The position numbers were made by a program, and so were the translations under genes. Positions 1-64,000 of a stretch of 64,000 bases of DNA are shown here, one piece after another; position 1 is the stretch's first letter; each line of letters starts with the position of its first letter. The stretch lies in assembly GCF_039555335.1 (NCBI RefSeq), contig NC_092637.1, positions 43,478,990-43,542,989 of the forward strand, given 5' to 3'. The notes under the pieces are model-generated. The model was not told the origin of the DNA. It ran no database searches and saw nothing but the letters and a program-made list of their open reading frames with translations. This DNA is from Amphiura filiformis (taxonomy: Eukaryota > Echinodermata > Ophiuroidea > Amphilepidida > Amphiuridae).

Positions 1-661
1 ACTTCGCTCCCCAAGTTGGTGCTTGGTCACTCACGGCTATCACGTACCCCGCCGAGCTTAGAGTGACGGGAAATCGGGAGTTGGCACTGTCCTCAAAATT
101 TCCCAATTCGCTCAGTTGGGCAAATTTTATGGGAACCCAGCCACTGTGAAAAAACTCTTTCACTCTCTGTACCTTTTCCTCGTTCTCTTTCCGAAATTCG
201 AATGCCCCTCGGTAGCGCGCCGTCTGTTCTGATTTCCCCCCTTGCCTGTCTTGTTGCTTGTTTAGAATTACCCGTCTAATCCTCAGAACGTTGTACTTGT
301 CGAGGTTGCTTTTTGCTTCCATATTCGCAAAAATATCGGAGGCATTATCAGCCAATGAGTATTTCTCGGTCATAGGTGTATCCGAGCGAAAAACCGGTGC
401 TAGAAGAGGACGTACGGTTTTGGCAAAGAGGTCCGTCTTCACGAAAAAACGCAAAAAATCCTCAGATTTGCCATCAAGCGGGAGCTCCTCGAGTTTATAC
501 CCGCTCATAAACAGGGACTTCGTATCCTTCGATTGGCAGTTGGAGTTGAGAATCCCCTCGAGGCACTCCTTAGATAGGTCGCTGAACGCCAGGTAATCAA
601 GATAACTTTCCTTGACCTCCTCATCCTCGTCGTAGCGAAAGAAATTTGAGAGCTGAGCCAT
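1..661 (-). CDS. Unknown protein, C-terminus off the left edge
   Basis: An open frame of 220 codons runs from an ATG at 661 to the window edge without a stop, so the gene is truncated here only because the window ends. The N-terminus is acidic (FFRYDEDEEVKE), followed by a charged, mostly soluble sequence with no signal peptide or membrane segment. I do not recognise the family. A strong TATA box (TATATAAAGG read on this strand, 705-696) lies about 35 nt upstream of the ATG, which supports both the start and the strand. It is divergent from the gene starting at 711. CpG-rich codon use matches the other island genes. Function unknown. Confidence 0.7.
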   Translation of the reverse strand, partial: MAQLSNFFRYDEDEEVKESYLDYLAFSDLSKECLEGILNSNCQSKDTKSLFMSGYKLEELPLDGKSEDFLRFFVKTDLFAKTVRPLLAPVFRSDTPMTEKYSLADNASDIFANMEAKSNLDKYNVLRIRRVILNKQQDRQGGKSEQTARYRGAFEFRKENEEKVQRVKEFFHSGWVPIKFAQLSELGNFEDSANSRFPVTLSSAGYVIAVSDQAPTWGAK

Positions 662-695
662 TTTGGTACACTGATCTTGTGTGACATTTTTTCTG

Positions 696-705
696 CCTTT
701 ATATA
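696..705 (-). promoter_or_regulatory. TATA box for the gene starting at 661
   Basis: TATATAAAGG on the minus strand, about 35 nt upstream of the minus-strand ATG at 661. It is a near-consensus TATA box at the short TATA-to-ATG distance seen for several other genes here. Confidence 0.6.
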
Positions 706-710
706 CATTT

Positions 711-2009
711 ATGGCGCTCTACCGATTTGTGAATTTCGACGACGATAATTTAGCAATTTTGCACCAGGTCGGTGGTAACGACACCGTTGTCGTTTCCAAC
801 GCACCTGGTCCGTTAGCGTTTATCTCGTATCGAGTATCGAAATCTGAGCGACTAGTAACCGAAGTATGTATTCCAACTACATTAGGAAGAGACGACATCG
901 TAAAAAGCTTAAAAACGTTTCGATTTTTAGACGGGAAAGTTGCCGTTTACAAAAAGATCGTTGCCTTGTTCGCAAAACGCTTAAAAACCGTTTTACCGCA
1001 AAAAAAATCTCTCAGCGACCATCTTGTTGACGATCTACTACGTGCAGTCAGTGACATTCCGACGGTTGATAAAGATGAAATAGCGGCCGTCGATGTTGTA
1101 CAAAGACTCGTTGGGCAACTGCGTCCACAAATCTTAAAAACTTTACGCGATATATATTCCGTGTGTCCGATTGACACAATTGGAACACATTCACGAAAAT
1201 GTGAGCAATACCATCGAATCGACTGGAATCCCGATGCGAGATACTTTATTCCACCGTTCTCACTGCATTCCGTAATAAACGGCGAATTCTTACCTCAAAC
1301 CGACGATCAAGTAAAGGCCACACGCTGCTGGCAGAGCCTTCGGCTCGGCGAAGCAATCGTTACCGGTGGTAAATCATTGCAAGGTGTCTCAACAGGAATC
1401 GTAGCTTATTGCGGAGTTTTATCAAACGGTGTTTGTACCTTGCTAGAGAACAATTTGGTGGATAGTTTTTGTTGCAATAACGGAAAACTTTACGTTGCCA
1501 CATTTGACGTTTGCACCGTATTAAAACAATTCGTAGACGTATGGCATCGATGGGATAAATTTCCCGAGATTAATTGGGAAGTATTCCTTCGAGAACGAAC
1601 GGATCTTGTCGACTCGTGCATAGTGCTATGCGCCGACGTTGTAAGCCGCTGTGAAACAAGAAAAAAAATCCCCTCGTTGTCAGCTGCATACCAATTGGAT
1701 GAAGCCATAGCGGGCCTCAACAGATTACCTCGTCAGAAGCGTTGCGTCATTCTTCATCAGTTTGACGAATGGACCGTGGACACATATCGACGATGCCTGA
1801 CACTTTTGACGGATTCCACTGTAACTGAAGTGTTGTCTACAAAGCGTACAGCTACGGACAGCGCAGACGAAGAGACTATCGCTTGCGGTTTTGACACGCG
1901 AATTATCGATATCTTAAAACGTTTTAGGAACTTGCATATAGTATGTTTTCATAGTCATTTTATTCGTTTTATATGCAGATTGCATCGCGAACGCTATTGT
2001 ACTAACTAA
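711..2009 (+). CDS. Unknown 432-residue protein
   Basis: Start chosen at ATG 711 (MALYRFVNFDDDN); the frame is open a little further up but without an ATG. It is a soluble, mixed alpha/beta-looking protein with scattered cysteines (for example SFCCNNGK and SCIVLCADV) and no obvious signal peptide, membrane segment or catalytic motif. I do not recognise the family. The stop at 2007-2009 sits inside the open frame of the downstream TNF-like gene, so the two genes overlap by up to about 70 nt. Divergent from the minus-strand gene at 661. An uncharacterised viral protein; a real gene judging by its length and CpG-rich codon use. Confidence 0.75.
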   Translation: MALYRFVNFDDDNLAILHQVGGNDTVVVSNAPGPLAFISYRVSKSERLVTEVCIPTTLGRDDIVKSLKTFRFLDGKVAVYKKIVALFAKRLKTVLPQKKSLSDHLVDDLLRAVSDIPTVDKDEIAAVDVVQRLVGQLRPQILKTLRDIYSVCPIDTIGTHSRKCEQYHRIDWNPDARYFIPPFSLHSVINGEFLPQTDDQVKATRCWQSLRLGEAIVTGGKSLQGVSTGIVAYCGVLSNGVCTLLENNLVDSFCCNNGKLYVATFDVCTVLKQFVDVWHRWDKFPEINWEVFLRERTDLVDSCIVLCADVVSRCETRKKIPSLSAAYQLDEAIAGLNRLPRQKRCVILHQFDEWTVDTYRRCLTLLTDSTVTEVLSTKRTATDSADEETIACGFDTRIIDILKRFRNLHIVCFHSHFIRFICRLHRERYCTN

Positions 2010-3093
2010 TGCGCCTGTATTTTCGAACTTTTCGCCAGTTATTTACCACGAAGCTTGCGTCGTGCTTGGAGCTCCACCTATTCTCCGTGTGTCTTCTGAT
2101 GGCGCGCCGTACGTCATTTGCGAACGAGGAAATGGCTCTGATATCGCCAGATGTCTATTCAAAAGTAACGACAACCGACGCGTCGCTCCGAAAGCCTCTT
2201 GTGCGATGTTGGGTGGCTTCTGTGCGAGACTTCGAAAAGACGTGGGAATTTGCGTGCCCGCAATTCCTATCGCCGGAGTTTGGTGGCCAGAAGCATTACC
2301 AACTGGGATGAACTGCAGTCGGCGTTGTGACGAAGACAGAGCCATTTTCATCGCGTGGGACGGATATGGAATGCGGGATAAAGTGTGCGCCTGTTCAGAG
2401 GTACCGAACGACGACGATAATCGTGCCGTATCCGTCATACTATCTCGAGCTAAAAATGCGACTTGTGACGTCTTCCAGTGGGACGAGCGTCATACTTTGC
2501 CGACGATGCGAGCGTTCGCAATTGTAGCCTTCGAAACCTCCCAGGCACAGCCGTGCTCCAATCAGAATGGACCGATCATGTTAGTTTCACATAAGACGTC
2601 ATGTTGGGATTCGAAGAGCTTTTTATTTTTGTTCCCTTCCCACCTCCCCCCGGTATTGTATCCGTCGGACATTCCCCCTTCGAAACTTTGTCTTAACTAT
2701 CAATTACGTGAAAGACCGTTCGCGTTTGTGGTATCCTTGGATGGTTTTGTCGATTACTGGAACGCGACTGCTCTAAGAGGCGGCTTTCGAATCGAAGGGA
2801 GGTATTTACGAGTACCTTTAGCCGGAGTCTACGCTATTTGGGGGCAAGTGGAGGAGGTACATGGAGCAACATCTTGGCGCGTAGTCCGTCGTTCGAAACA
2901 GACGGATAAAGTAGTGGCTTTTGCTCGAATCGAGCAACCTCGTCGTGGCACCGTTGTAATCGCTGATCTCGCTTGGTGCGATCCCGAAGACACTCTGTCA
3001 TTAGCAGTAGCCCATAGTGCCGCGAAACACTCTGTGGTACATCTCACCGTTGGACTAGTTGCGCAGAATAAAGAAAATGACGACATTTCTTGA
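1942..3093 (+). CDS. TNF/C1q-like protein 1 (start unclear)
   Basis: The C-terminal part looks like a TNF/C1q beta-sandwich: a buried strand plus aromatic turn (GRYLRVPLAGVYAIWGQV) followed by a DTLSLAV strand and a final hydrophobic strand (VVHLTVGLVAQ). This matches the family pattern of a G-Y-F/I-V strand, then L-x-GD-x-L-x-V, then a closing strand. The open frame begins right after a stop at 1939-1941 and opens with a hydrophobic stretch resembling a signal peptide, but it has no in-frame ATG there. The first in-frame ATG is at 2206 and would omit that segment. A nearby ATG (1943) is one base out of frame, beside a T run at 1946-1949. So the gene may be frameshifted, mis-sequenced, spliced or started at a non-ATG codon. 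The middle part is Cys-rich. First of three adjacent TNF-like genes. Confidence 0.6.
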   Translation, partial: YVFIVILFVLYADCIANAIVLTNAPVFSNFSPVIYHEACVVLGAPPILRVSSDGAPYVICERGNGSDIARCLFKSNDNRRVAPKASCAMLGGFCARLRKDVGICVPAIPIAGVWWPEALPTGMNCSRRCDEDRAIFIAWDGYGMRDKVCACSEVPNDDDNRAVSVILSRAKNATCDVFQWDERHTLPTMRAFAIVAFETSQAQPCSNQNGPIMLVSHKTSCWDSKSFLFLFPSHLPPVLYPSDIPPSKLCLNYQLRERPFAFVVSLDGFVDYWNATALRGGFRIEGRYLRVPLAGVYAIWGQVEEVHGATSWRVVRRSKQTDKVVAFARIEQPRRGTVVIADLAWCDPEDTLSLAVAHSAAKHSVVHLTVGLVAQNKENDDIS

Positions 3094-3625
3094 TGCCATT
3101 ATATCGTTACTCGCCTGCGTTACCGTCGCGCGATCTTTCCTTCATCCCGCTATCATGGAATACGCAAGGCCACTAGCCCGATTATCAGTTAGCGACGAAA
3201 GTTCTATTCGAACAATAGATAGCGTTTTTACGGTACAATCATGGACCGGTATTGAAACTCGTGCAGGGATGCGCTTGAACGAACGCGGCGAATTGATCGT
3301 TCCATTATACGGAGATTACGTATGTTTCGCCCAAATTGAAGTTAATAGCAATGGCAAGAACAACAGTGGGCTTTACGTGCTACGATTTTCGGATTCGTAC
3401 GACCCATTTTCCAATCATCTTTCTTCTAGGAATGATACCGTTGCATCCATTTACGTATCGAGTACATATCGGGGCTCCGTTAACTGCGGTAATGTAATTG
3501 CTCTTAAAAAGGGTGACAGGTTGTCGTTACGTTTTGACACTGCAATCAAACCTTTTTTCGACACTTCGTCAGCTATTCGCCTCTTCGTCTATCATGTTTA
3601 CCCTTCTTCGTTTTGGCTGGATTAG
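3077..3625 (+). CDS. TNF/C1q-like secreted protein 2 (182 aa)
   Basis: ATG at 3077 gives a clear signal peptide (TTFLDAIISLLACVTVARS). The rest is short enough to be a single TNF/C1q-type jelly roll: GELIVPLYGDYVCFAQIEV as the D-E strand region, LKKGDRLSLRFDT as the L-x-GD-x-L-x-V strand, and a closing strand (IRLFVYHV). Two potential N-glycosylation sites are visible (NNSG, NDTV). Its 5' end overlaps the end of TNF-like gene 1 by 17 nt and its 3' end overlaps the next gene by 32 nt. Family assignment is by pattern only; C1q and TNF domains cannot be told apart by eye. Likely a secreted cytokine-like ligand or a decoy acting on host receptors. Confidence 0.65.
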   Translation: MTTFLDAIISLLACVTVARSFLHPAIMEYARPLARLSVSDESSIRTIDSVFTVQSWTGIETRAGMRLNERGELIVPLYGDYVCFAQIEVNSNGKNNSGLYVLRFSDSYDPFSNHLSSRNDTVASIYVSSTYRGSVNCGNVIALKKGDRLSLRFDTAIKPFFDTSSAIRLFVYHVYPSSFWLD

Positions 3626-4604
3626 ATTGCTTCTTTCAGTTACGTTTTTCAGAGCTTTCGCGCACTCTTACTTTTTAGTGGAAACATACGGCGCCTATAT
3701 CTCTCGACCTTCATCTTCGCTTTCATTGTCGAAAACAATTCGCATCTTTAACGAGACTTTCGTCGTCGATCGACCCGTTGTTCAAGGATTTAGCGACGTT
3801 ATAGCTAGCGCCGGAGGCTACGTTAACCACCAAGACGGTTACTTGAGAATTCCTCGAAGCGGGTGGTATTTTGTCTACTATCCCTCGGACACTGCACTTA
3901 ATATCAATGGCGTGAGACGCAGTCCTTTATTCTCATCGCGGAATGTGATTTGGTTATGCGCGGGTGATGATATTGACGTAGATCTCCGTCTTGTACCGAC
4001 GGATACGCGCCATTGGGGGGCAGCAATGTTGGAGGGACCGATTGATCCGATCGTGCAACTCAAACAATGTTTTCGTCGACCTATCCCGGTTCCCAACACC
4101 GACGTTTTTCGCGCTCTTGACCTGTGTCGTTTCCGTCATCAGCAAAAAGTGGGTATGGATGAATTTTGGACCTACTCTGGTTATCCGGTGCACGTCACTT
4201 CCCTCGATTACGTGTACTTGCTCGCGTGGCTTATTTTGCCTTCGACCTTTCAACTCTCGGAGTTTGCTGAAACAACTTATCGAGGATATCGAGATATCGA
4301 GTTACCCTTGAAAGATTTAAGCGCGTATTACGTGTGTCCAAATAACGGTAATCTTATCACACGCGTGCTGTCCAGTCTTACGAAGGATCACACGATCGAC
4401 TTCCTGCGTCAATTCCTCGAATTTGGAGATGGGCGAATAACGTGGCACCCAGCAACGACAAAATACGTGACTGACCTCAGCAATCGCGCTCTAAATCATA
4501 CTAAAGCTTTAGATGATCGAGAGGATCGAATTTTAGCATGGGCTATGCACTTTCAGTGGCGAATTACGAGCGCGTTTGATATCAATTACGATCTCGAGAA
4601 CTAA
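3594..4604 (+). CDS. TNF/C1q-like secreted protein 3 with C-terminal extension
   Basis: ATG at 3594 gives a signal peptide (RFGWIRLLLSVTFFRAFAHS). Residues ~70-160 resemble the TNF/C1q fold of the two preceding genes: GYLRIPRSGWYFVYYPS, then LCAGDDIDVDLRLVP in place of L-x-GD-x-L-x-V, then a short closing strand with GAAMLEG. The ~170 residues after this have no relative I recognise and look alpha-helical. Possible N-glycosylation sites are NETF and NHTK. It starts inside the end of gene 2 and is the last of the trio; AT-rich host-like DNA begins straight after the stop, with a (TA)n run at 4609-4624 and an AATAAA at about 4643. Confidence 0.55.
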   Translation: MFTLLRFGWIRLLLSVTFFRAFAHSYFLVETYGAYISRPSSSLSLSKTIRIFNETFVVDRPVVQGFSDVIASAGGYVNHQDGYLRIPRSGWYFVYYPSDTALNINGVRRSPLFSSRNVIWLCAGDDIDVDLRLVPTDTRHWGAAMLEGPIDPIVQLKQCFRRPIPVPNTDVFRALDLCRFRHQQKVGMDEFWTYSGYPVHVTSLDYVYLLAWLILPSTFQLSEFAETTYRGYRDIELPLKDLSAYYVCPNNGNLITRVLSSLTKDHTIDFLRQFLEFGDGRITWHPATTKYVTDLSNRALNHTKALDDREDRILAWAMHFQWRITSAFDINYDLEN

Positions 4605-4859
4605 ATGACTATATATATATATATTTCGTCTTGTGTTTAGAATAAAAGTAGATGTGTTATAATTATGTCAATGAAATTTGTATCGCTTAATTTCATCAAA
4701 ATTTGTACGCCTACATAAATATACACATACATATGTAGGGGTTGTTAGAGGTCATTATGTGAAAATGTTTAAAATGCTACTAGTGCCAGGTGCTTGACCC
4801 GATTTCGACTAAACGTGGTCATAAGAACCGCTGACCGAGCTTAATAAAAGTTATTCACA

Positions 4860-5460
4860 GATAAGGGGCAAAGGTCATATAGGGGTTATTAAGGATAATT
4901 TTGTGAAAATCTTAAAAAAGCTACTCCTCATTTAAATTACATGCAAACTTGAGGTCACGAGGTGAACTCGACCCATTTGGGCTTAAACTTGGTTCAAAGT
5001 ATCCTTGATATGAGGGAAACATGAAGAGGTCACCCGAGGTCAAAGGTCACATGAGGTCAAATGTTAAAATCATCCTTAGTACGAGGAGCATAGAATGTTC
5101 AAAGGTTAAATGAGGTCAAATATTAAACTTGCCGGATTGGGCTTAAACTTGGTGCGAATTCATCCTTGGTATAAAAGAAACATGAAGAGGTCAACCTGAG
5201 GTCACCCAAGCTTAAAGGTCAAATGAGGTAACGTTTCAAACTTGACCCAATTGGGCTTAATCTTTGCGCAAAGCATCCTTGATATGAAGGAAGCATGAAA
5301 GTCAACCCGAAAAGTCAAATGAGATCACGAGGTAAACTCGATCCATTTGGGCTTAAACTTGGTTCAAAGTATCCTTGGTATGAGGGAAACATGAAGAGGT
5401 CACCCGAGGTCAAAGGTCACGTGAGGTCACGTGGTAAAATCATCCTTGGTATGATATTTG
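4860..5460. repeat. AGGTCA-rich diverged tandem repeat
   Basis: Imperfect units containing 'cccatttgggcttaaacttg', 'aaagtatccttg' and 'gaaacatgaagaggtcaccc' recur; the best pair starts near 4,954 and 5,325 (about 370 nt apart), with weaker copies between. Many AGGTCA half-sites occur. Similar AGGTCA-type arrays appear at 28.8-29.7 and 42.5-43.8 kb. Confidence 0.75.
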
Positions 5461-5930
5461 TAGCTAGTAGCTCTAGTTGATTTTGTACTTTTCCCGTTTA
5501 CACGGAGAATTTGTTTCACCGTATGCCCAATCGTGCGAAGTTTAAACGTAGGCCCTAAATGACCGTTGACCTCGGATGACCTCGATTGCATTTTAGTTAT
5601 ATTTACCTGATATCAGGGTCTCCTCTCACCAAGTTTTAAGTTTTGTTCAAGGACTCTTATCGTGCATATAGACCTATACCATATTAAACATCAAATTCGT
5701 GACATATTCAACTCGTTTGTGTATATAATTAGCGCATTTACTTCAGTAATCAGTCTTTATGTAGGCTATGTGGTCAATTCCAGCGAAAACGGGACAAAAG
5801 TCATTAATAAAGGAAATCACGGTATTGATTGAGCATATCATGTCACGTCCAATGTGCTCTCTTTGAGCATATAGGCCTTTACAAGCAAGTCATCCCAGGG
5901 GGCAAGTTATGATGGCTTAAATGAATTGGC

Positions 5931-7912
5931 TTTACCCACGAATTTAAAGATAAAGCACCATATATGTCATTGAATGTCCTTCAATCAAAATGAAATTATT
6001 ACCGTTAGAAAGAGGTTTGCATGATATCTCATCATATGTAAAACGATTGAATTCCACCAAAGTTTGTGGATTCCAGAGGCCATTAAGTCAATTTGGCTAA
6101 TAATTTTGTTACCCGCGTATCAAAAATAAAATGATCGTTCGGAAAATGTTAAGTGAATATGCCATAAATTATTATATTCATTCATTCATTCATTCATTCA
6201 TTCATTCATTCATTCATTCATTCATTCATTCATTCATTCATTCATGTATTTTATTGTCATATTTTAAATACAAAACATCAAATCAATGGCATACAAATGC
6301 AATATAATACAAGTTACTTCAAGCAAATAAGTGATCAATATAATCAAGAAAATACTCAGCATGCTATAACAGATCAATACAATGAACACAATATATATAA
6401 AGACAATGCCAGCAAAAACTTAGGCAATAACTAATAATATTATATATTTAAAGTAACATAGTGATTTATAAATCATATAAATCAAAACAATTTTATACAA
6501 ACTATTATAATTTAATTTAAAGTAATACAATACAAAATAAACAAGAAAATTTGCAGCATGCATGATGCAGATCTATGTGATCCATGCACTGTACGACGCA
6601 AACAAAAATTATAAAATTATCGTTTATACAGTAAGCGATATAAACAAGAAAATACGCATCATGCACGAAGTAGCCGATCTATATGATCCATGCACTGTAT
6701 TATGCAAACGAAAACTATACAATTAAATAATTTGCTTTTATTTTATATTTATATACATTTAAAAGAATGCCTATGGCGATCAATATCATCAAATTGATAA
6801 ATAAGTCAAAACTGAGACATGGAACATTTTTTGATTTTGCTATTGCAAAAAGTATACCAAAAAAAAAAGATGAAATATGGAGGAGAGGCCATTAAACTCA
6901 AATGAGCTTTCAGCTTGGCCCCACCTCTAACTTGGAAAATAATGCTGATTAATGGACGGGGACAAGACAGGACGGACAAGACAAAGGACAAGGGGGAAGT
7001 GAATTACTGGAGCAAATGGAGTCTAATACAATGGGAAACAGTCGTATATAGGAGTGCTATATGTATCAGTCATCCATATCAGGATTAAGACATTGAGCAC
7101 GTGCTGGTGGAATATAAATCAAATTTGACGTTACCAACGTATCAACTGTTACCCACGAGTCCAGCAAATATAATTGTCTTAACTTAAATTAACATTTAAT
7201 GACTTAGGACACTGAATTTAGTTTGACAAGCGCTTAACATTGTAAATCGTAAAAATACGTTCACCGCTTTAAAAAAAAGAATCTACGACGGTTTAAACTT
7301 TTGATACCCACGAATCCCGAATAGATGCTAACCTTGGAAAAAAAGGAGATTGTTTATTTTAAGTTTAAATCAGCACATATTCAAGCCATGGGTATGCTAT
7401 GATTTTTATAGTACTTACAGTTTATGCACATAAGAAACGCAAACCCCAAGCGGTACTATTATAGTACTTATAGCTTTACCCACGAATTCGGCTTTACCCA
7501 CGAATCCAATGATTTACTCGCAAATTATATGTATCTTATTCATCTTAACATTTTGAAAACATGCGAAATAGGTTTCAAAACAGTCCTGTTTAATAGCGTC
7601 CTCTTGAAGGTATACCGAAGCTGTATTATGAAGTTTTGATTGATTATCCTAAATTACCATTTTTATGGGGTGAATGCAATTGGTTAGAGAAACGGGAATT
7701 ATTGAAACACAATGGAGGAATAACCGCATGATGGTTCCAACCTTCTGTAATATTTTCTATTTTGCCGCTTACCAATACATACCTTCAAATATGTGTTACC
7801 CACGAACATTTTTCAGTGTATATGGGTTACGCATAAAATATTGAAAGATATTAAAGAAAGTGAAATTTTATGGCGTACAACAGGTGAAAAAGGCTTGGAT
7901 TCGTGGGTAACA
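5931..7912. repeat. Dispersed TTACCCACGAATC motif
   Basis: A 12-14 nt word, TTTACCCACGAATT or close variants, occurs at about 5,931, 7,148, 7,303, 7,476, 7,493 and 7,795, and inverted (GATTCGTGGGTAA) at about 7,898. Weaker matches lie at 6,108 and 7,130. The copies are not tandem and lie within 2 kb. Confidence 0.6.
6177..6245. repeat. (TTCA)n microsatellite
   Basis: Seventeen perfect TTCA units in a row. Confidence 0.97.
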
Positions 7913-8442
7913 TGCATATGCGCATTTAACACTTTATTTGGTCTAGCAAGAAAAGTTATTTTTGAATCCGATGGCACTTCCACCTGATGGTTCACTAGAT
8001 ATGATCGTCTCATTTGATAAGTCTAGAATTGAAAAGGAAAACATTTTCAAAATGGCCCCCAGAGAGAATTTTGTCCCGCTTTGGCTGGAATTGACCATAT
8101 ACCATTTCATAATGCATTTTTCTCATCTTTTGCGCGTTTCTATTTTCATTCGATGCGTTTGATTAATAATCATTTTTTTTAATTACATAGACTTATCATT
8201 ATATTCATACTACATGTTTTGGCTCTGATTTGATTTTATATATTTCGGCACTTTTGACTCTTATTTATTGGACTTTACTTTTGAATATATTTGAGTCTCA
8301 TATATGTTTTCATTTTACGGCAGAAACAATGTTTCGACCTTTTCTATTCAAACAAAATTGGTAAAAGTTATGGTCTTAGATCTTCGTATACTGTGTACGT
8401 GCCTTTTATTGGTATATGACAATGTTCGTTCCATTTCTAAAT

Positions 8443-8739
8443 CTACCCTGATAACAAAATGGAATGTTTATCGCGTGAAAGTGTTACTTGACAGAGATCA
8501 AAGATGTTGATGACGTATTCCGTTGTTGTGCATCCTAGTCGTCTCAGCGCCGTATGTGATATAGATGCGGGTCCTAACGAGATTTCTATTCCAATTTCAT
8601 CTTTAATTTTCAGCAACATCTTGCCTTTCATAACCATGGAAGGAATCGTAACAATCGATACCTCTTTGGTTCCAATTAACCATTGCTTTAAAGTCTGATT
8701 ATCATGGACCGCTATTTCTTCGAACATAATGCGCGCCAT
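8443..8739 (-). CDS. Small unknown protein (98 aa)
   Basis: ATG at 8739 (MARIMFEEIAVHDNQ). Small, with short alternating hydrophobic strands and no signal peptide or membrane segment. A TATATATG-like box on this strand (8,770-8,760) lies about 25-30 nt upstream. It is the outermost gene of the island that continues with the TIR and UBAN genes in the same orientation. I do not recognise the family, and the gene is short enough that it could be chance, though codon use resembles its neighbours. Confidence 0.45.
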   Translation of the reverse strand: MARIMFEEIAVHDNQTLKQWLIGTKEVSIVTIPSMVMKGKMLLKIKDEIGIEISLGPASISHTALRRLGCTTTEYVINIFDLCQVTLSRDKHSILLSG

Positions 8740-8927
8740 TTTGACAATTATATAATATTCATATATATTTACAACGTTAAAATAACGTATACTAATAGTT
8801 ATAACACATCACGATATTTTCGTGAATTGCACATTCATTCAATGAACAATGTGTCGTCTGAATCCATCGTGATGGTATAGTTAGATATTATAATACACAT
8901 TGAGTTCATTATCAGGAGGCTTCGTTT

Positions 8928-9311
8928 CTATGGCACAGTCTGAAATGCGCTTCTAAAGACTCGTTTAAAGTATGGATTCGAAGTGACGATTCCGGTTACA
9001 CCTTTTAGACCCGCTGGGATATCTTGATCGGCAAAGTGCTTGTCCATTACATGAAAAACAGACTCGTCTTGGTATTTTGTCGCCCCTTCACACGCACGTG
9101 TACATATTTCGTTGCATCGCTCATCGGTCAAAAAATTACGCGTTAATAGACAAACTGTACGGTAACAATCTCGTAGAGCAGTAGAAATATTAGTAACCTG
9201 TGGCGAACATAATACAGAAAGTTGATTTTCAGCGCAAACTTTAACAACTAAGTTGTATATCGCGGTGTTTTCATCTCGATGACTAAATACAAACAAGATG
9301 TCGTATCCCAT
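8928..9311 (-). CDS. Small TIR-domain-like protein (127 aa)
   Basis: ATG at 9311. The protein is about the length of one TIR domain. It begins with the betaA/box-1-like GYDILFVFSHRDENTA. Next come a betaB-like LSVLCS, a helix with ALRDCYRTVCLLTRNFLTD (betaC plus the usual 'NFL.s..C' segment) and a C-terminal NPYFKRVFRSAF. TIR domains mediate adaptor assembly in Toll-like and IL-1 receptor signalling; a stand-alone viral copy would most simply compete with MyD88-type adaptors. The conserved box-2 proline loop is not clear (SPQVTNISTAL), so the match is a pattern call. The UBAN/ABIN-like gene lies immediately upstream on the same strand, which supports an NF-kB-directed role. Confidence 0.65.
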   Translation of the reverse strand: MGYDILFVFSHRDENTAIYNLVVKVCAENQLSVLCSPQVTNISTALRDCYRTVCLLTRNFLTDERCNEICTRACEGATKYQDESVFHVMDKHFADQDIPAGLKGVTGIVTSNPYFKRVFRSAFQTVP

Positions 9312-22416: not shown

Positions 22417-22427
22417 TCTTGACAGTC

Positions 22428-53825: not shown

Positions 53826-53839
53826 TATATATATATATT
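53826..53839. promoter_or_regulatory. Shared (TA)n TATA element between divergent genes
   Basis: TATATATATATATA lies 20-33 nt upstream of the minus-strand ATG at 53,806 and about 50 nt upstream of the plus-strand ATG at 53,888. As a palindrome it can serve both strands. Confidence 0.5.
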
Positions 53840-53887
53840 TGAATAAAGCTTTAGCGACGTTAACGTGCGATTTTTCTTTTGAATGCG

Positions 53888-54789: not shown

Positions 54790-56493
54790 ACCCTCGAAGC
54801 GGCCTACAATGACGGATTTGGATTGGCAATCCCCGTACCAACACTTTCTTAAAACTATGTTTGACTCAGGTTGATAATAAAAGTATTGTTTTGCTGCGCC
54901 GTGTGAGCGTCGAACGAAAAGGCACTGTCTCTCGTCCGTATCGAAAAACGCGCCTCGTGTCGTTACTTTTCGTCTGACAACTCGAACTCCCAGGTCGTCT
55001 GCTATAAACGTTTTAATAGCTTCTAGAGTAATCGGTGTTATTGAACGAACGGGGTTACTTTCGCGTTTAATGTAATCGCCAGACCTCTTCAATACTAATC
55101 GTCTCCATCCATAACATAGGGTGTCGTGGGGATAGTGCGACAATGCACCGATGACGTCATCTTCCATGACGGGTCTAGTCGTACCCGTGCTAACTACCCA
55201 AGCGTTCATTGTGTTACTCTGTCTAGATTTGGCGCAACCAGGTAGCCTCAAGCTTCCATTCTTGCGATAAATTCCGACATCGACGAAAGAGATAAAATCG
55301 TTCAAAACTGGAGTCGCGTTCGCGACTTCCCTTCCGTCGGCGTCGTAAAATGTTGAGTGTCCGTCTTCGAACCTAGTTTCCCAAGAGCCCCGACGCCAAA
55401 CACCTAGTAAGGTCGATTTCACGCCTCTCAAATGACGCACCGTGCTCACCATGTCACCGACAATATTTCCAAGTTCTTCGATATTCGCTACAGTTACGTT
55501 GCTAGGTAACGTTTGATAGATGTGCAGTGACAATTTGTCGATTGTCTCACCTCGAAAAACTCGAAAAGGCCAATCCAACAAGTTGAAGTGCTCCCCAGTC
55601 ATGCAAAAACGTAAGGCTGTCGTCATTCGCTGACGCAATTCGTCTACGACCCTAGCGACGAAAATTTTCTCGCCGCACTTCGAGGAAAACTTCCGCCATG
55701 ATACACCGTCAATATCAAGATCAAATGGCAAGCAAGTGATTTCCAAGTTTTCGCGATAAATTTCACTAAACGTGCGTAATTCATCTTGGCAATGAACTAT
55801 ATCGTTCGCTAAACGTTTTGGAGAGTATGCTACGAACTGTCGCGAGGCAGAGATGATTTCACTAACAACAATTAACGTTCGTTCGGGTACTGACAAATCA
55901 AAAGCCCTCCAGTCATCGGTAGTTGGTGCATTCGGCGGTGCTTGCCTGTCGGCGTATCGTTTCGTGATAGATAACAAACTCGGCAAATTTTCAGTGTTGG
56001 AAAAAGCGCGTAAAAAGGGGTTCCATGTATTATAATACAATTTAACGGCTAAACTCGGATCATTTTCGTAACAAAATCGCCGTAATCGAACGCTGCCTTC
56101 GATGTCGTAAGTGCGTTGGTCTACCCGGTGCGTCTTTCTGGGGAAAGCGATGCACACGTCATTGGCTATTAGACTTTCATTCGTTATTCCTCGGCGCATC
56201 AAATCCTCCACCATTTCTTCCTCATTGCGAGTATAGGTATATACAAAATGAGAAAAGTCCTCTGCCAATAGACGAGCAATCTTTTGCGGCGGAAGTTTCA
56301 TCGACAACTGCTCATCGACAGGGATATAACCGAGTTTAACACTGTTCCTACTATACGGGAATTGCACGAGACATATTATTTTTCCACCTATGGAATGGGT
56401 TCCATTCTGGTCCATGATTCGGCATCCCTGAGATTTGTAATGCTTTAAAAGTGGAAGATATTCCAATTCGCAAAAACATTCCATCTTCACCAT
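54736..56493 (-). CDS. DNA primase candidate (herpes UL52/AEP type)
   Basis: ATG at 56,493 (585 aa; 56,484 is also possible). Archaeo-eukaryotic primase features: PFDLDIDG (Asp-x-Asp around residues 258-262), a downstream VDVGIYRKNGSLRLPGCAKS matching the 'D-x-x-V-Y-x5-R-L-P-x-x-x-K' segment of herpes UL52-type primases, and a C-terminal zinc cluster C-x6-H...C-x3-C (CLFVRRSH and CWYGDC). The enzyme would make RNA primers at the viral fork. It is shorter than herpes UL52 (about 1,000 aa). The start codon shares CATG with the divergent pseudo-phosphatase gene. Confidence 0.65.
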   Translation of the reverse strand: MVKMECFCELEYLPLLKHYKSQGCRIMDQNGTHSIGGKIICLVQFPYSRNSVKLGYIPVDEQLSMKLPPQKIARLLAEDFSHFVYTYTRNEEEMVEDLMRRGITNESLIANDVCIAFPRKTHRVDQRTYDIEGSVRLRRFCYENDPSLAVKLYYNTWNPFLRAFSNTENLPSLLSITKRYADRQAPPNAPTTDDWRAFDLSVPERTLIVVSEIISASRQFVAYSPKRLANDIVHCQDELRTFSEIYRENLEITCLPFDLDIDGVSWRKFSSKCGEKIFVARVVDELRQRMTTALRFCMTGEHFNLLDWPFRVFRGETIDKLSLHIYQTLPSNVTVANIEELGNIVGDMVSTVRHLRGVKSTLLGVWRRGSWETRFEDGHSTFYDADGREVANATPVLNDFISFVDVGIYRKNGSLRLPGCAKSRQSNTMNAWVVSTGTTRPVMEDDVIGALSHYPHDTLCYGWRRLVLKRSGDYIKRESNPVRSITPITLEAIKTFIADDLGVRVVRRKVTTRGAFFDTDERQCLFVRRSHGAAKQYFYYQPESNIVLRKCWYGDCQSKSVIVGRFEGLRVVGCQRSHGPINEKR

Positions 56494-56953
56494 GCCCAAG
56501 TTGTATCCAATGATAGACACTCTCGGGGAACGATACGCTCTTTATAATATACACGAACGTTACGAGGGTCTGTATACGAGTAATAGTTTGATTTGCACCG
56601 ATAAAAACGTGACTGATGATTTCCAGACGATTTTAAATCTAACCGCCGTACGAGTTCATCGTCAGTGCGTATACCTACCCGTCCCCTTTACAGACTCTCT
56701 CGAACTAAACGAGCTGATTGGCCTACTCGCACCATTTTTTAAAGGAGCTTCCTGTGGTAAAGTTTTAATAGTGTGCGACGATGGAAACAAACTTTCACCG
56801 CTACTTGTCGTAGCTTTCCTCGTTAAATATCGGGAATTCACTTTCGATCAAGCTCGTCGAATTATCAACGAGGAGTTTTTTGTGTCGAACTTCTATCGTC
56901 GACAAATCGAAAAATTTGAAGGGCAACATCGCTGGTTTATGTTTCCGTCGTAA
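56492..56953 (+). CDS. Inactive dual-specificity-phosphatase-like protein
   Basis: ATG at 56,492, 153 residues. The fold fits a small DUSP: YTSNSLICTD, a central FTDSLELNELIGLLAPFF, the P-loop strand KVLIVCDDGNKLSPLLVVAFLV and the closing helices (YREFTFDQARRIINEEF). The P-loop keeps Cys95 but lacks the His before it and the Arg that binds phosphate (normally HC-x5-R; here VCDDGNKL), so catalysis is unlikely. Such pseudophosphatases bind phosphoproteins without dephosphorylating them. Starts share CATG with the primase; the 3' end overlaps the nuclease gene by 17 nt. Confidence 0.72.
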   Translation: MPKLYPMIDTLGERYALYNIHERYEGLYTSNSLICTDKNVTDDFQTILNLTAVRVHRQCVYLPVPFTDSLELNELIGLLAPFFKGASCGKVLIVCDDGNKLSPLLVVAFLVKYREFTFDQARRIINEEFFVSNFYRRQIEKFEGQHRWFMFPS

Positions 56954-57635
56954 CAACCGAAGAAAAACCGCGAATCCACGCGAATTTAGACGGTGGTATT
57001 TCTTCTAAGCAGAAAAGATTAATGTCTTCTTCGCCATCTTCAGTGGTAGCTATTACCACCAAATACGACTCACTGCGAATTTTGTACGTTTCGCTGAAAC
57101 ACAGCGATCCAATTTGGGCTTGCATTCGGGCCTTGTCAAAAAAACTGCGCTTCCGACCGGTTTTTCTACAACGAGGCGCGTCGCCGTGTTCGGTCAGTAC
57201 CTCTAGCATTGTTTTCCCAGTTCGTTTGATTTCAACGCAAGCATAAATGTTGTTACGGGAATTGTAAGCAACCAAGTCGATTTCCGAACAACTAGCCTTT
57301 GTACAACTAACGTTGTAACCTGCGTTGGTCGTCCATATTTTCGCGGTTACCGGTTCCAACCGGTTGGCTCGAAGCACGTCACACACAGGGTGCGATCCGC
57401 CCTCTTTTACGATCGATTCCACTTCACGGTCGTATTGGCGACCACGTTCGAGTCCGGCCAATCGTCCTTCGTAACACTGTTTCTTGACCCTAAATCTTGC
57501 GTTCAAAATGTGATGAGGACGATGATACGCATTGATCTGCGATGTGATACCCGACACTTCCACTTGCCGTTTCCCATTTTCGGCAATACGTTTACGACCC
57601 CTGATTACGCGCCAGTACGCTTCAGGAAGTTTCAT
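56937..57635 (-). CDS. PD-(D/E)XK nuclease-like protein (232 aa)
   Basis: ATG at 57,635. An active-site pattern is visible: helix with Glu (GRQYDREVESIVKEG, Glu71/73), SEIDLVAY (Asp120), CVEIKRTGK (Glu135-x-Lys137), and a helix with Gln (MQAQIGSLCFS). This is the order of RecB/Cas4-like PD-(D/E)XK nucleases. The basic N-terminus (RVIRGRKRIAENGKRQ) may target the nucleus. With the YqaJ protein this makes two nucleases of the superfold in the window. A TATA-like TATTATATG lies upstream near 57,658. The family within the superfold is not identified. Confidence 0.65.
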   Translation of the reverse strand: MKLPEAYWRVIRGRKRIAENGKRQVEVSGITSQINAYHRPHHILNARFRVKKQCYEGRLAGLERGRQYDREVESIVKEGGSHPVCDVLRANRLEPVTAKIWTTNAGYNVSCTKASCSEIDLVAYNSRNNIYACVEIKRTGKTMLEVLTEHGDAPRCRKTGRKRSFFDKARMQAQIGSLCFSETYKIRSESYLVVIATTEDGEEDINLFCLEEIPPSKFAWIRGFSSVVTTET

Positions 57636-57659: not shown

Positions 57660-57696
57660 ACGTTAATGGGACTCATAGGTCATACAAAAATACAAC

Positions 57697-58492
57697 ATGC
57701 CTAAAGAAACACTGCGAAAGAAAGCGCTTAAACGAAAATCTCAATCAACGAAAAACAGCGTAATATCGCCTCGTTTTTCAATCTATTCAACCTATAGATT
57801 TTGCCGAGCGATGCGGTGCTTGGGTACCCTATGGTATTCCACCCGCATGGGGCAGACCGCTGAGGCATGAATTCACTAAGCCGTACTATAAACGTTTGTT
57901 TCAATTTATCGCTGACGAAAGGGAACATGGCACCGTCTTTCCCGATAACGAAAGATTGTTTCAGTGGACAAAGTTCTGTCGACCTTATGACGTAAAAGCA
58001 GTGATATTGGCAAATCAACCTTACAATGACTCTCTACTTGCTCACGGATTGGCCTACAGCGTACCGGATGGTGTTCCCGTACCAGAAGCGCTGCGTAACG
58101 TGTTCTTGGAACTGAATCGAGACATTAGTGCGCCTATCCCAAAATCTGGGAATCTTGAGCCTTGGGCAAAAAGAGGTGTTCTCTTACTCAATATAATCGG
58201 TACTGTGAGAGCTTTCAATCATTTCACGCATCACGATCGTGGCTGGGAGGAATTTACAAAAGCCGTACTTCAATTTCTCTCTGATACCTACTCCAATCTA
58301 GTGTTTATGTTATGGGGATCTTTCGCCCAGAAATTTACCCATTGTATCGATGCTAAACGTCATTTCGTTTTAAAAACGAGTCATCCGTCATCATTATCGG
58401 TCGATCGTGGTTTTCATCGGTGTGGTCACTTCTCGAAAACCAATTTGTATCTTCGCGAGATGGGTAAACCACCGATCGACTGGCATCTTTAA
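57697..58492 (+). pseudogene. UNG: Family-1 uracil-DNA glycosylase, frameshifted and with altered active site
   Basis: UDG removes uracil from DNA. The family-1 pattern is clear: KPYYKRLFQFIADERE, LLLNIIGTVRAFNHF (Asn of the uracil pocket), VFMLWGSFAQK, and HPSSLS (58,382-58,399; leucine-loop motif). The water-activating motif, normally GQDPYHG, reads ANQPYND (58,010-58,030), so the catalytic Asp is Gln and the following His is Asn. The UDG frame is open from 57,764 but has no in-frame ATG; a basic ATG-started segment (57,697-57,870) lies in another frame, the two meeting near a T5 run at 57,774-57,778. So the copy is either frameshifted or mis-called, and probably weak or inactive as an enzyme. 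Confidence 0.85.
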
Positions 58493-58494: not shown

Positions 58495-58869
58495 CTATTT
58501 TTTCTTCCATCCCGACCTGCAACCACAATCCAAGCATCCGCTTATCGAGTTCCTACCGCCGCATAGATAACATCGCACGTATTCGGCGATATAGTCACGA
58601 AGAAAATATCGTAATTTCTCCTGGTTGTGATTACCGCAGAGTTTGTTTTTGCCGATACACGGCACTGCCGTACGATAGGCTAAATATTCAACGATATTAC
58701 TTGACGGACAGTCTATATAAGAACTAATTGAATCTACGTTCTCTAACAAAGTGTATTGGTTGCTCCAGCACACGATCAACTCTGGAATCATATCGTCACT
58801 TCTCAAAATGTCACGAAATGATGAAGTTCTCACGAGACCTAATCCCTCTCGGTTTGTTATTTTGCCCAT
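58495..58869 (-). CDS. eIF2-beta/eIF5-like zinc-domain protein
   Basis: ATG at 58,869 gives 124 residues (a second ATG at 58,791 would give 98). It fits the C-terminal domain of eIF2-beta/aIF2-beta: [39 protein letters not shown] (compare L-R-R-Y-I-x-E-Y-V-x-C-x-x-C) and a zinc ribbon with C100, C103, C112, C115. In host eIF2-beta this region contacts eIF2-gamma and the Met-tRNA. A viral mimic could compete in initiation or alter start-codon choice. It ends 2 nt after the UDG stop (convergent), and its 5' end overlaps the RNR2 gene. Confidence 0.75.
58714..58721 (+). promoter_or_regulatory. TATA box for the RNR2 gene
   Basis: TATATAAG about 87 nt upstream of ATG 58,808. It sits inside the coding region of the opposing eIF2-beta-like gene. 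Confidence 0.55.
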
Positions 58870-59777
58870 TCAGTACCACGACATTTGGCATATGTATAAA
58901 CAGGCAGAGGCCTCTTTTTGGACAGTTTCGGAAATAGATCTACCAAGGACATCGATCACTGGATCAATCTTACCGAGAAAGAGAGACAATTTTTGAAATT
59001 TATTCTAGCTTTTTTTGCCTCAAGTGACGGAATAATAATCGAAAATTTAGCGACGAGGTTCTGTCGAGATGTTCAAATTCCGGAAGCGCGTGCTTTTTAT
59101 GGTTTTCAGATTGCTATGGAAAATATCCATTCCGAAATGTACAGTACCCTCATCGACACATATATTCGAGACGGGGACGAGAGAATGAGATTGCTGAGCG
59201 CCTTGGAAACAATTCCAGCGGTGACGAAAAAAGCAGAATGGGCTTTACGCTGGATTGAAGATGACGAAAATAATTTTGCCACCAGACTCGTAGCTTTTGC
59301 CGTAGTAGAAGGTGTGTTCTTCTCGGGATCATTCGCCGCTATTTACTGGCTCAAAAACGCGGCCTGATGCCAGGTTTGACATTTTCCAACGAGCTTATCA
59401 GTCGTGACGAAGCCCTTCATTGCGATTTTGCGTGTTTACTATTTTCCCATCTGAAAAACAAACCTTCTCGACACGAGGTCTTGAGTATCGTTCGGGAAGC
59501 TGTCGACATCGAAGGTGAATTCATGACGGATGCTTTGTCGTGTTCACTGATTGGTATGAACGAGCGACTTATGCGTCGCTATATTGAATTTATAGCGGAT
59601 CGATTATTGATCGAGCTTGGTTTTGACAAGTTTTACAACGTAAATAATCCTTTCGATTTCATGGAAAATATTTCCTTGGAGGGTAAAACGAATTTCTTTG
59701 AACGTCGTGTCGGTGAATACCAGAAAGCGGGAGTTATGGCAAAGGATCGAACATTTACGCTCGATGCAGAATTTTAA
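58808..59777 (+). pseudogene. RRM2: Ribonucleotide reductase small subunit, two apparent frameshifts
   Basis: Class Ia R2 makes the tyrosyl radical for dNTP synthesis. ATG at 58,808. All metal-site residues are visible: the Asp in SSDGI, the Glu/His/Tyr of [10 protein letters not shown], the Glu of VEGVFFSG and the Glu/His of [10 protein letters not shown], and the C-terminal FTLDAEF tail that binds R1. The frame changes at 58,940-58,945 and again at an A5 run (59,353-59,357), each by one base, so no single frame covers the gene although both breaks fall in otherwise perfectly conserved sequence. This looks like very recent damage or sequence error. Highly similar to animal R2, implying acquisition from an animal or strong constraint. 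Confidence 0.95.
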
Positions 59778-59947
59778 CGGACAACACGCAAATATGCGTG
59801 TAACACAATGAATAAAAAGACGTTTATGTTCATGCCACCCGTCAAAATCAGACAGTTCATCATTTATATTATTACAATTATTTACTAATGTAATGTGACA
59901 AATACTAATTGAAATAAGATTTTAGATAATGGCTATAGCGTTAGGGT

Positions 59948-61166
59948 TATATGAAGAGCTTATTTCCAAACCGTGTTAAGTCCACCCACCTTCAAAATTG
60001 AGATTTTGATGAAAATGAGTAGTGAGTAACTAGGGCTATCCAGCAATGTGAGTGCTTTTTTCCAAAATTAGTCAAGTCCCGAAATATTGACACACAAAGT
60101 ACCAATCCAGTTTGGTAGCAAACTGTGTTAAGTCCACGAACAATGCCCTTGTGGGTAGCTTGTAGGCAAGTAGCACGGCATAGGGCTTCCAATAGTTAAT
60201 CGCCCAAGTTCTGCATGATTGATAACACTGCCTTGCTTTGTGTCTTCGTTCTTGTTTGGTCCTGAGACTAGTATACCTGAATTTGGTCTGAATAAAAAGT
60301 TGTTGTTGTTGGTTTTTGTTTTAATAATTAGTAGGCCTAGTTTGTATGGGATTTCTTAAATATTTGATAGATACCTCCAGAAAGACATGAGAAGGGGGAG
60401 AGGGAGAGGTTGTGATGGTAGAATTAATGTTAGAGGATGGTGATAGAGTTAGTTTTTGATATTATTATTTTGTATGATTATCAAAATGTGCTACTAAATT
60501 CAAGGTATTATTTTAAAGTTAAAGGTATAAAAAACTTAGGACTTAAAGACTTAAAAACTTATGGCTGTCAATATGACTATTATGAGATTAGGGTGGCAGC
60601 ATGGGGGAGGGGGAATTGTGATAACTGATAATGTGATAAAACAAGTGGGTATTTCGGGTCATCACTTATTGTCAGTGAAATGATGTTGATTTAATTCTGA
60701 GAAATGCAATACAACTCAGTTTTGAATTTTGAACTATTTTAAACATCGAATTTTGGTAACAAAAATGGTTGGGAGGAGGGGGTTCGAGATGCAAGGTGTT
60801 TTGTGGTAAAATTGTGTTTTATAGTAGAGAGAATCACATTTTGTATGTTTTTAATAAATTTGTTATCTTTTAAGACTAGTTTGAGAAAAAATATGGTTAG
60901 TTCTGTGTTAGTCCATGCCAGAAATTGAGTTTTGTGTCAAAACGTGTTAAGTCAATGCTATTTTTAAAACAAATTAATTCATTTAAAAAAATCAAAAGTC
61001 TCTAGATTTTAACTTAACATGTTTTATGGTCCTATATATGTCACCTTCACTTCACTGTAATTTTATAGAAATCGAACTTTATTTCATTGCTATAAAGAAA
61101 ATTCCTGATTTTCTTCAAAGTGAATCTTGTGGACTTAACACGGTTTGGAAATAAGCTCTTCATATA
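59948..61166. mobile_element. Non-autonomous DNA transposon with 38-bp TIRs
   Basis: Left end 59,948-59,985 starts TATATGAAGAGCTTATTTCC; its exact reverse complement is at 61,129-61,166. GTGTTAAGTCCA words recur inside (about 60,124 and 60,945), as in subterminal repeats. No transposase frame inside, so it would depend on an enzyme elsewhere. Confidence 0.9.
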
Positions 61167-61345
61167 TCGAAAATATAAGATCTAGTTATTCCAAAAGTGA
61201 AAATACGCCTTATAAATTTACTTAATTATAAATCAAGATAGATGGCAAGTACTGTTAGTGGCTTTTATTTCATCGTGGACTTTATTGTGAGTGCATAATC
61301 ACGCTTTCATTACCGTACGCCTGCATTTTGCCATAAACACGCATT

Positions 61346-61432
61346 CCCAGCAAACACAAAACATTTTTGACATTATTCGCAAAAGGTTACAAAAGGTTGC
61401 CATATTTTTTATAACGTTTTGTGTTTTCTGGG
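61346..61432. mobile_element. MITE with CCCAGCAAACAC ends, copy 3 (short)
   Basis: CCCAGCAAACACAAAACATT at the left and AACGTTTTGTGTTTTCTGGG at the right, 87 bp. Shares both ends with copies at 26.2 and 34.8 kb. Confidence 0.8.
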
Positions 61433-62217
61433 TTTGTATAATTTTAAAAATAAGTAAAAATACATTTATAACAGCATAGATTTTACTCAATATGCATTGA
61501 ATAGTTTATGATAAAATTATTACAGAAAAAATCTAAAGCAAGGTTATATAAATTATCAAAGAAAATAAATATAAATTTCAAAGACCAAAAAGGAACCACA
61601 AAAATGAATTCATAAATGATATATATCTATATTACATGTAGGCCTATAATGAGACAAATTATGATCCAGTTTTTGGACACAATGTTTTTAGGAATAATCT
61701 TTGTGATCTTTCTGGATGTTGCTCTCAACTCAAGATAGCTCATATTACGACACGTGAAACTGCTATCTTCAGTAGATAGCAGCATTTACATAGTCAAATA
61801 TGAACTCTGCTATCTACTGAAGATAGCTCATATTACGATAGAACTTATCCCTTTGAATAAGAATGAACGTTTACCAGCTTCAGTTCTGGCTTTGAAATTT
61901 AACGCAATACATGCATTACCACGTGTATCGTGAAGATGACTGGATCACAGAAGTAAAAATTGTTTGCATATACTGTGTAGCAAAACCGGCAATATATTTA
62001 TAAGAAATAATAAAAGTTATATGCATAAAGCAACATAACTGCAATTTGTATAATAATACAGATTAAAATATATGATATATTAATGGGCCTTTTTAACATC
62101 AATAAATGAAAAATTAATTTATCATACAATTTACAGTCAAGTACATATGTCTACGTATTGTCTAAGGTTGCTGAGAAGCTTCCATTTAAGTTTTTACCCT
62201 GATTAAAGAGACGGTGT

Positions 62218-62690
62218 CCTATACATGGCCATACATTACCATACATGACTATACATGATCATATATAGCTATAAGCGGTTATACAAGCTTGTACGTGCTT
62301 ATATGCATGGCTATACATGCCTATCCATAGCTATGCATGGCCATACATGACCATTCACAGCTATACATAGCTATGCATGACTATACATGCCTATACGCAG
62401 CTATACATGGCCATATATAGCTATTAATACATGGCTGATAGCTAGGCATGACTATACATTTCTATACACACCAATACATGCCTATACACAGCTATGCATG
62501 GTTATATATAATTATAACCATAAATGCTTATACATGGCTATACATAGCTAGACTATACGGAGCTATACATGATCATATAATAGATATGCATGGCTATATA
62601 TAGCTTTGCATGTCCATACACGCCTTTATATAGCTATACATGGCCATACATAGCTACACATGCAAATACATAGCTATGATTGCGTGGCTA
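62218..62690. repeat. CTATACATG minisatellite
   Basis: Dozens of imperfect 10-14 bp words such as CTATACATGGCCATACATAG. Confidence 0.9.
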
Positions 62691-63048
62691 ATAATGATTA
62701 TGATGAAATTGGAACACAATTTTGATCAAATTGGCGGGTGTCCATTTCAGTTGGTGGTTTCTCTGTTGGGCCTATATAGTTGAAGGTAATCGGGAACAAT
62801 AAGGGCGTACGTGCAATTGTCGTATCGACTTTTATCATAGTGTATATCATAAACGTATCACGCAACAATAAAAGCAAACAATCATGAGACAGAATCTCCG
62901 TGTTTTCTCATTATGATACTTTATTACCTTTAATGATCATTATTTGTTGTTTTAAAAAAATCTCTTTATACACTCGCGCTCCTGCCTGATAATCCGCGGC
63001 AAGAATGATCCACCCCAACCCAAAAACAAAAATGAAACGATAGAAAAT

Positions 63049-63765
63049 TCAGGAAAACTGACTGCGATCAATAAGGGGTTTTAAAGCAAGCTCTTCGGTT
63101 AAGTCTAATTTTCGACCCAGTTCCCACTCACGTTGCACACAAGCATCGCACCATTCCGAGCTAAAGTCCACGTATTTTAGCACTATATCGAGAAATTTCT
63201 GTCCTGTATTGAGCAATGATGTGGTGGATTGGAACTGCGTATTGACGTTGAATTTCGGCAAGAATAGTTGATATCTGCGAAAGCTTTCCTCAAAGGGAAT
63301 GGTGAATTTCAACGAGGGAAAGTTGTCGTTTTTATCAACGACGTGGGTGTCGAAAGTCAATGCGTCCTGTATTATATTTCGGGCTGAAATGACGCCGTAT
63401 AACTGACCCGAATGATTCAAGTTATTCGTCGAATAACTCATCGCTATACTCCCTTCTTTGTTCCACGTGAGATGAGAGTGTAACAGATAGTTGTAAGAAG
63501 CCTGCATTCGCAAATCAAAGTTGTCTCTCACCGTTACGTTAGTGGCACCCGTCGAGGGGAAATGCAGAACTGTCGATCCGTGACCAGTAGGTGATCGGAA
63601 TTCGATCATATCATCTTGAAGTTTCGATCCACGCACGTGATTAGAAAAAGATGCACTTGCTGACTTTGTCAAATGCACCACGTTTTGAGAGGATACTATA
63701 TTTACCAAATAAAAAGTAACTTTGGCGCGTCCATCACTCGACTTTACTATCAGTCGCTCGCTCAT
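63049..63765 (-). CDS. Unknown 238-residue protein
   Basis: ATG at 63,765 (MSERLIVKSSDGRAKVTF). Strand-rich, with many N-x-S/T sites (NVTV, NHSG) but no signal peptide, so probably not glycosylated. The C-terminus is helical with a CDAC pair. No family recognised. It overlaps the upstream partial gene by 32 nt on the same strand, and its stop is at the island edge. Confidence 0.7.
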   Translation of the reverse strand: MSERLIVKSSDGRAKVTFYLVNIVSSQNVVHLTKSASASFSNHVRGSKLQDDMIEFRSPTGHGSTVLHFPSTGATNVTVRDNFDLRMQASYNYLLHSHLTWNKEGSIAMSYSTNNLNHSGQLYGVISARNIIQDALTFDTHVVDKNDNFPSLKFTIPFEESFRRYQLFLPKFNVNTQFQSTTSLLNTGQKFLDIVLKYVDFSSEWCDACVQREWELGRKLDLTEELALKPLIDRSQFS

Positions 63766-64000
63766 TTTGTACGTTCAGTTTCATACAAAATCCGTTCTTA
63801 TCCCTCTTTACATTGGGTAACTCCAAAGTCGAAGTTAAGCGATGTCGCTCTGCGTCGTTCACGGTGAAAATAAAAAGCATTATCGGCTTACTCAAATCCA
63901 GAACTCCGTTGTCGAATTCTTTTTCCGCGAGTAACAGTGCCTTGCGAAGAAATCGTATTAAGTCAAAGTGAACGAGTGGTTGATATATCAACCAATCTAC
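63734..64000 (-). CDS. Unknown protein, N-terminus off the right edge
   Basis: The frame is open from the window edge to the stop at 63,734 (at least 88 residues). The visible part runs LVHFDLIRFLRKALLLAEKE, then a strand pair (PIMLFIFTVNDAERHRL) and a charged tail. No motif recognised. It overlaps the downstream gene's start by 32 nt, a typical spacing here. Confidence 0.6.
   Translation of the reverse strand, partial: VDWLIYQPLVHFDLIRFLRKALLLAEKEFDNGVLDLSKPIMLFIFTVNDAERHRLTSTLELPNVKRDKNGFCMKLNVQNERATDSKVE

Follow-up and report, generated by a model that had tools for sequence, protein, structure and literature searches.

The 64-kb stretch of contig NC_092637.1 of the ophiuroid Amphiura filiformis analysed here (assembly GCF_039555335.1, positions 43,478,990 to 43,542,989; the window) probably represents a portion of a herpesvirus-like viral genome, in all likelihood integrated in an animal chromosome. 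Kinship with herpesviruses is argued for above all by a putative protease-scaffold gene of the capsid module, and integration by spacers, host-like by composition and repeats only, that separate compact islands of intronless genes. Judged by sequence, the best reading is of a virus far from the described families. Integrated herpesviruses are already known from amphioxus, medaka and sturgeon; as far as literature searches reach, what is new is the arrangement in islands and spacers, together with how far the capsid candidates stand from families already described.

Putative capsid module and probable kinship with herpesviruses

Three genes make up the putative capsid module:

23781..25112, plus strand: protease-scaffold (assemblin-like), 443 amino acids (aa), recognised by fold match
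25118..25987, plus strand: triplex-2 candidate resembling ORF27 of ictalurid herpesvirus 1 (IcHV-1), 289 aa
29870..33178, plus strand: major capsid protein candidate, 1,102 aa

The protease-scaffold is the strongest evidence of herpesvirus kinship. Its open reading frame (ORF), like that of 1,102 aa, is open along its whole length. In a low-confidence model of the 443-aa protein, herpesvirus proteases account for 35 of the 36 listed PDB rows covering the N-terminal domain, a frog-herpesvirus ORF28-type protein ranks first in the viral structure library, the best fold matches being frog and abalone herpesvirus proteins, and long helices suggest a coiled coil after residue 190. At this level of confidence, the model shows the assemblin-type maturational protease with attached scaffold by which Herpesvirales are recognised, the scaffold part being a predicted coiled coil; presumably, as in herpesviruses, the protease would cut the scaffold inside the procapsid. 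Cys 117 is conserved in all nine protease homologs and His 114 in eight of the nine, and either could be the third catalytic residue. One homolog (P0014) lies on a public contig of 144 kb, where far more of a related element may be present.

The adjacent 289-aa ORF matches the IcHV-1 ORF27 family (VG27) with an E value of 0.0038, below the cut-off, and two of the four family members match; no triplex was found among its PDB profile-search matches. We take IcHV-1 ORF27 to be a triplex protein and the counterpart of triplex 2. The homologs of the two genes occur in pairs, P0009 and P0018 both on contigs of 10,714 and P0012 and P0019 both on contigs of 11,038, as expected if both genes stay together. 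In the alloherpesvirus capsid module of salmonid herpesvirus 1 (SalHV-1), triplex 2 and the maturational protease likewise bear consecutive numbers, ORF23 and ORF24 (PMC13030845), although sequence similarity here falls below the family cut-offs.

The 1,102-aa protein, conserved in eight homologs and with a relative that is 83% identical, is likely to be the major capsid protein, as we infer; it has no sequence match to a described capsid family, and modelling did not establish an HK97/herpesvirus fold. None of the capsid-module proteins gave a sequence match above cut-off to Malacoherpesviridae or Alloherpesviridae.

A further gene that bears on this kinship was identified in the Pfam scan, which covered 50 sequences of the window (a set of 40 and one of 10, six of the latter being spacer frames):

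20430..21185, minus strand: YqaJ/viral alkaline exonuclease (PF09588 6.5e-13, PF01771 1.9e-6; match to the 3syy exonuclease 2e-4)

An alkaline exonuclease, which also counts towards assignment to Herpesvirales, is present by its PF01771 score of 27.3 bits (cut-off 20), but PF09588 (YqaJ) scores higher. The original prediction had described a herpesvirus-like element with capsid and protease candidates. Its claim of kinship is supported by the fold match of the protease, the weak ORF27-family match of the neighbouring gene and the viral alkaline-exonuclease family match; in the profile and fold checks the protease held up through its herpesvirus matches, but the capsid protein was not proven. 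The scan returned no terminase ATPase or B-family DNA polymerase from the 50 sequences, the element running off both ends of the window.

It is improbable that the window instead derives from another large double-stranded DNA virus, one like mirusviruses, nimaviruses or nucleocytoplasmic large DNA viruses (NCLDVs), that merely shares an HK97-type protease fold. In its favour, NCLDVs commonly carry PCNA, YqaJ, RNR2, UDG and genes resembling translation factors, and the capsid and triplex candidates are unproven by sequence; yet the protease matches are mainly herpesviral, with phage prohead proteases entering the BFVD list of the 443-aa model at rank 7 (E 0.047), and no NCLDV capsid, ATPase or polymerase was matched in the Pfam-scanned sequences.

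Gene islands and host-like spacers

Counted from ATG, 41 ORFs in the window reach 120 aa or more; two of them are frames within a TCA satellite (35153-36355 and 35172-36299) and at least two overlap better genes (2043-2438 and 53888-54256). With the satellite frames removed, along with antisense or alternative frames that overlap other genes, and with each broken gene counted once, we mapped 39 genes; they are intronless, as had been proposed, and slightly fewer than the "more than 40" of that proposal. Both window edges fall inside open frames in the ORF listing, again as predicted. The genes are grouped in ten islands (37.3 kb in total, 96.7% coding), between which lie eight spacers (2.4-4.3 kb) and a single gap of 863 bp:

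4605..8927: spacer 1, between convergent genes
11836..14817: spacer 2, between convergent genes
17687..20429: spacer 3, between convergent genes
25988..29869: spacer 4, in a tandem gene pair, apparently absent in a relative
34085..37081: spacer 5, with TGA/TCA satellites, between convergent genes
40304..41166: short AT-rich gap of 863 bp with an island-like CpG observed/expected ratio (o/e) of 1.53
41848..44217: spacer 6, between convergent genes
49385..52700: spacer 7, in a tandem gene pair, with a short inverted-repeat element at about 51160-51419
59778..63048: spacer 8, between convergent genes, with 38-bp perfect inverted repeats (59948-59985/61129-61166)

Spacers occupy 42% of the window (26.7 of 64 kb) and differ from the islands in GC content (0.334 vs 0.446) and CpG o/e (0.85 vs 1.50). 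The break in composition is sharp at gene edges: over 16 edges, mean GC is 0.423 for the terminal 100 bp of the gene and 0.334 for the adjoining 100 bp of spacer. The satellites and short inverted-repeat elements that had been noted in the spacers were recovered, as tandem arrays (31 TRF rows over the whole window) and as inverted-repeat elements of several families. All 48 self-match repeat pairs (E<=1e-6, low complexity masked) run from spacer to spacer, eight joining different spacers, and no pair end lies inside an island; one family with CCCAGCAAACACAAAA-type inverted ends is common to two spacers (26200-26733 and 61346-61404, 93% over 59 bp). No transposase was recognised among the 50 sequences scanned with Pfam.

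The placement of the spacers appears to follow gene orientation. The 38 neighbouring gene pairs comprise 10 convergent, 10 divergent and 18 tandem pairs, and gaps above 2 kb fall in six convergent, two tandem and no divergent pairs (Fisher p 0.0017, the test having been chosen after the pattern was seen). Spacers are by definition gaps between detected genes, and a gene destroyed by insertion would count as spacer; this survivorship is a real caveat. The idea that the spacers are decayed genes only was nevertheless rejected, since decay would not favour convergent pairs. An assembly chimera of viral and host contigs was likewise rejected as very improbable: chimeric joins should interrupt genes haphazardly, whereas none of the eight long spacers cuts a flanking gene and six of the eight belong to one orientation class. 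A capsid homolog (P0002) and a protease homolog (P0013) both list a 6,833-bp contig from the same source; if this is one contig, spacer 4 is absent in that relative, as it appears to be.

Probable integration and its consequences

These observations can be explained by the following sequence of events: (i) a compact virus genome would have integrated, and host-type repeats would then have entered between its genes, and (ii) insertions would mainly have survived at tail-to-tail gene ends, where they break neither frame nor promoter. Integration would be the simplest setting for this, and survival mainly at convergent ends suggests that selection acted on the genes during the build-up of at least part of the spacers. 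The earlier description of the element as endogenous gives the better fit to spacer composition, repeats and sharp edges, but the window contains no host gene, no empty site and no junction with unique host DNA.

On the other hand, a free herpesvirus-like virus with its own AT-rich, repeat-filled intergenic regions, never integrated, is unlikely but deserves consideration. Several points speak for it: most genes are intact, the islands show no loss of CpG, the protease gene of a relative lies on the 144-kb contig, and acipenserid herpesvirus 3 (AciHV-3) of sturgeon itself contains retrotransposon remnants and five internal repeat regions, yet has also been found integrated (PMC12031113). Against a free virus stand the 42% share of spacers, with satellites and several inverted-repeat families, and the seeming absence of one spacer in a relative.

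Rather speculatively, the integrated element may represent a deep, unnamed herpesvirus-like lineage kept as an inherited provirus, in which virion and replication genes would be under selection and host transposable elements would be admitted mainly at tail-to-tail junctions, giving a chromosome-style array of gene islands. Parasitoid wasps carry dispersed, domesticated viral clusters comparable to such an array. Invertebrate herpesviruses are known from very few genomes, and an apparently integrated lineage whose capsid protein is linked to no described family by the sequence searches made here would, if real, widen the order and document it. Spacer placement would imply that insertions were filtered by selection, and hence that viral genes were active in some role after integration. 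The window also serves as a natural experiment, showing which sites of a compact viral genome are open to host repeats.

Comparison with known integrated herpesviruses brings out both likeness and difference. BelcheriHV-1, a malacoherpesvirus integrated in amphioxus (PMC12373286), is similarly herpes-like, has 45.7% GC, lies between repeat-rich regions and contains a gene-poor 21-kb block with repeats; however, its 150 kb fall into three blocks, whereas here many islands of 1-7 kb alternate with spacers of 2-4 kb, and 27 of its 62 ORFs resemble malacoherpesvirus genes, whereas the capsid candidate here is without a match in sequence. The words PCNA, exonuclease, primase and reductase are absent from the main text of the BelcheriHV-1 paper. 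Teratorn (PMC5601938) is also a herpesvirus genome in an animal chromosome (medaka), with capsid, protease and triplex genes intact, but its sequence is alloherpesviral and it is joined to a piggyBac transposon; here no transposase, of the piggyBac or another type, was recognised among the Pfam-scanned sequences of a window in which both ends of the element are missing. AciHV-3 of lake sturgeon (PMC12031113) shares integration, internal repeat regions and transposon remnants, and differs in having five internal repeat regions and telomere-like ends, whereas the spacers here recur every few kilobases, mostly at convergent gene ends.

DNA-metabolism and nucleotide genes

Apart from the exonuclease, the following genes belong to this group:

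14818..15606, minus strand: PCNA (PF00705 1.1e-14)
21172..21810, minus strand: deoxynucleoside kinase, dNK (PF01712 2.3e-23)
54736..56493, minus strand: primase candidate, 585 aa, at motif level only
56937..57635, minus strand: possible second PD-(D/E)XK nuclease besides YqaJ (UPF0102 0.069, weak; motif read by eye)
57690..58492, plus strand: uracil-DNA glycosylase, UDG (Pfam match), catalytic Asp replaced
58780..59777, plus strand: ribonucleotide reductase (RNR) small subunit, RNR2, in three frames (PF00268)

Pfam matches above cut-off were obtained for PCNA, YqaJ/viral alkaline exonuclease, dNK, a dual-specificity phosphatase, a TNF ligand, an eIF5/eIF2B-type domain, the RNR small subunit and UDG, and matches just at cut-off for a RING finger, EABR and the NEMO leucine-zipper domain. 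PCNA, YqaJ, dNK, RNR2 and UDG, all named in the original prediction, are thereby confirmed, but not its UL52-type primase, for which Pfam gave nothing at E values up to 0.5 and the best PDB match, at E 0.32, is not meaningful; the candidate is named for its primase-like motifs.

The three RNR2 frames cover successive positions of the PF00268 profile (1-31, 32-174 and 178-281). The UDG frame has no ATG ahead of the conserved part, and the piece upstream in another frame has no family match in Pfam. In an alignment to a solved UDG, the position of the Asp that we take to be catalytic holds Gln, which could be decay or make a structural pseudo-enzyme. UDG seems to have been acquired later from an animal, because its best matches reach 233 bits and the first herpesvirus UDGs listed about 144 bits or less, with vertebrate and herpesviral rows told apart by their entry codes. 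Because of the frame changes in RNR2 and in the NEMO-like gene listed below, together with the lost UDG catalytic residue, decay may have begun, unless these are partly sequencing error.

Other genes

ORFs without an assigned family are spread over the window:

2..661, minus strand: unannotated ORF cut by the left window edge, no Pfam family
711..2009, plus strand: 432-aa ORF, one weak Pfam match below cut-off (E 0.0098)
10071..11835: 191-aa ORF (minus) and 396-aa ORF (plus)
15734..17686, plus strand: 650-aa ORF
21823..23818: ORFs of 197 aa (minus), 268 aa (plus) and 194 aa (plus)
33248..34084, plus strand: 278-aa ORF
37082..40303: ORFs of 142, 363 and 366 aa (minus) and 184 aa (plus)
46398..49384, minus strand: 727-aa and 341-aa ORFs
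52701..54789: 311-aa (minus) and 247-aa (plus) ORFs
63049..64000, minus strand: 238-aa ORF plus a frame that continues past the right edge; the two may be separate genes or a single broken one

Host-type signalling and other genes are as follows:

2206..4604, plus strand: three overlapping ORFs (295, 182 and 336 aa), the middle one a TNF-family ligand
8928..9311, minus strand: TIR-like protein, weak (PF13676 E 0.011, below cut-off)
9367..9967, minus strand: NEMO/CEP55-like coiled-coil protein in two frames (EABR 1.3e-5; CC2-LZ of NEMO 1.5e-8)
41167..41847, plus strand: dual-specificity phosphatase (PF00782 2.7e-29)
44218..46302: DWNN ubiquitin-like ORF (minus), 375-aa ORF (plus) and RING-finger ORF (minus)
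56492..56953, plus strand: second phosphatase-like ORF (DSPc 6.7e-5, below cut-off)
58495..58869, minus strand: stand-alone eIF5/eIF2B-type domain protein (PF01873 5.1e-9)

The stand-alone eIF5/eIF2B-type protein is, to our knowledge, unusual in a herpesvirus. The DWNN ORF (PF08783 2.7e-5, below cut-off) lies close to the RING-finger ORF (zf-C3HC4 2.9e-4, 21.1 bits against a cut-off of 21), a possible viral ubiquitin-system pair. The TNF ligand matches PF00229 at 3077-3622 (E 3.1e-6, 27.6 bits, cut-off 23); the two flanking ORFs look similar to it by eye, the third matching TNF with E 0.091 and the first having no TNF match. Together, the TNF-family ligand, the weak TIR domain and the NEMO/CEP55-like protein are host-type immune genes that point at NF-kB signalling, on which their products would act in the host.
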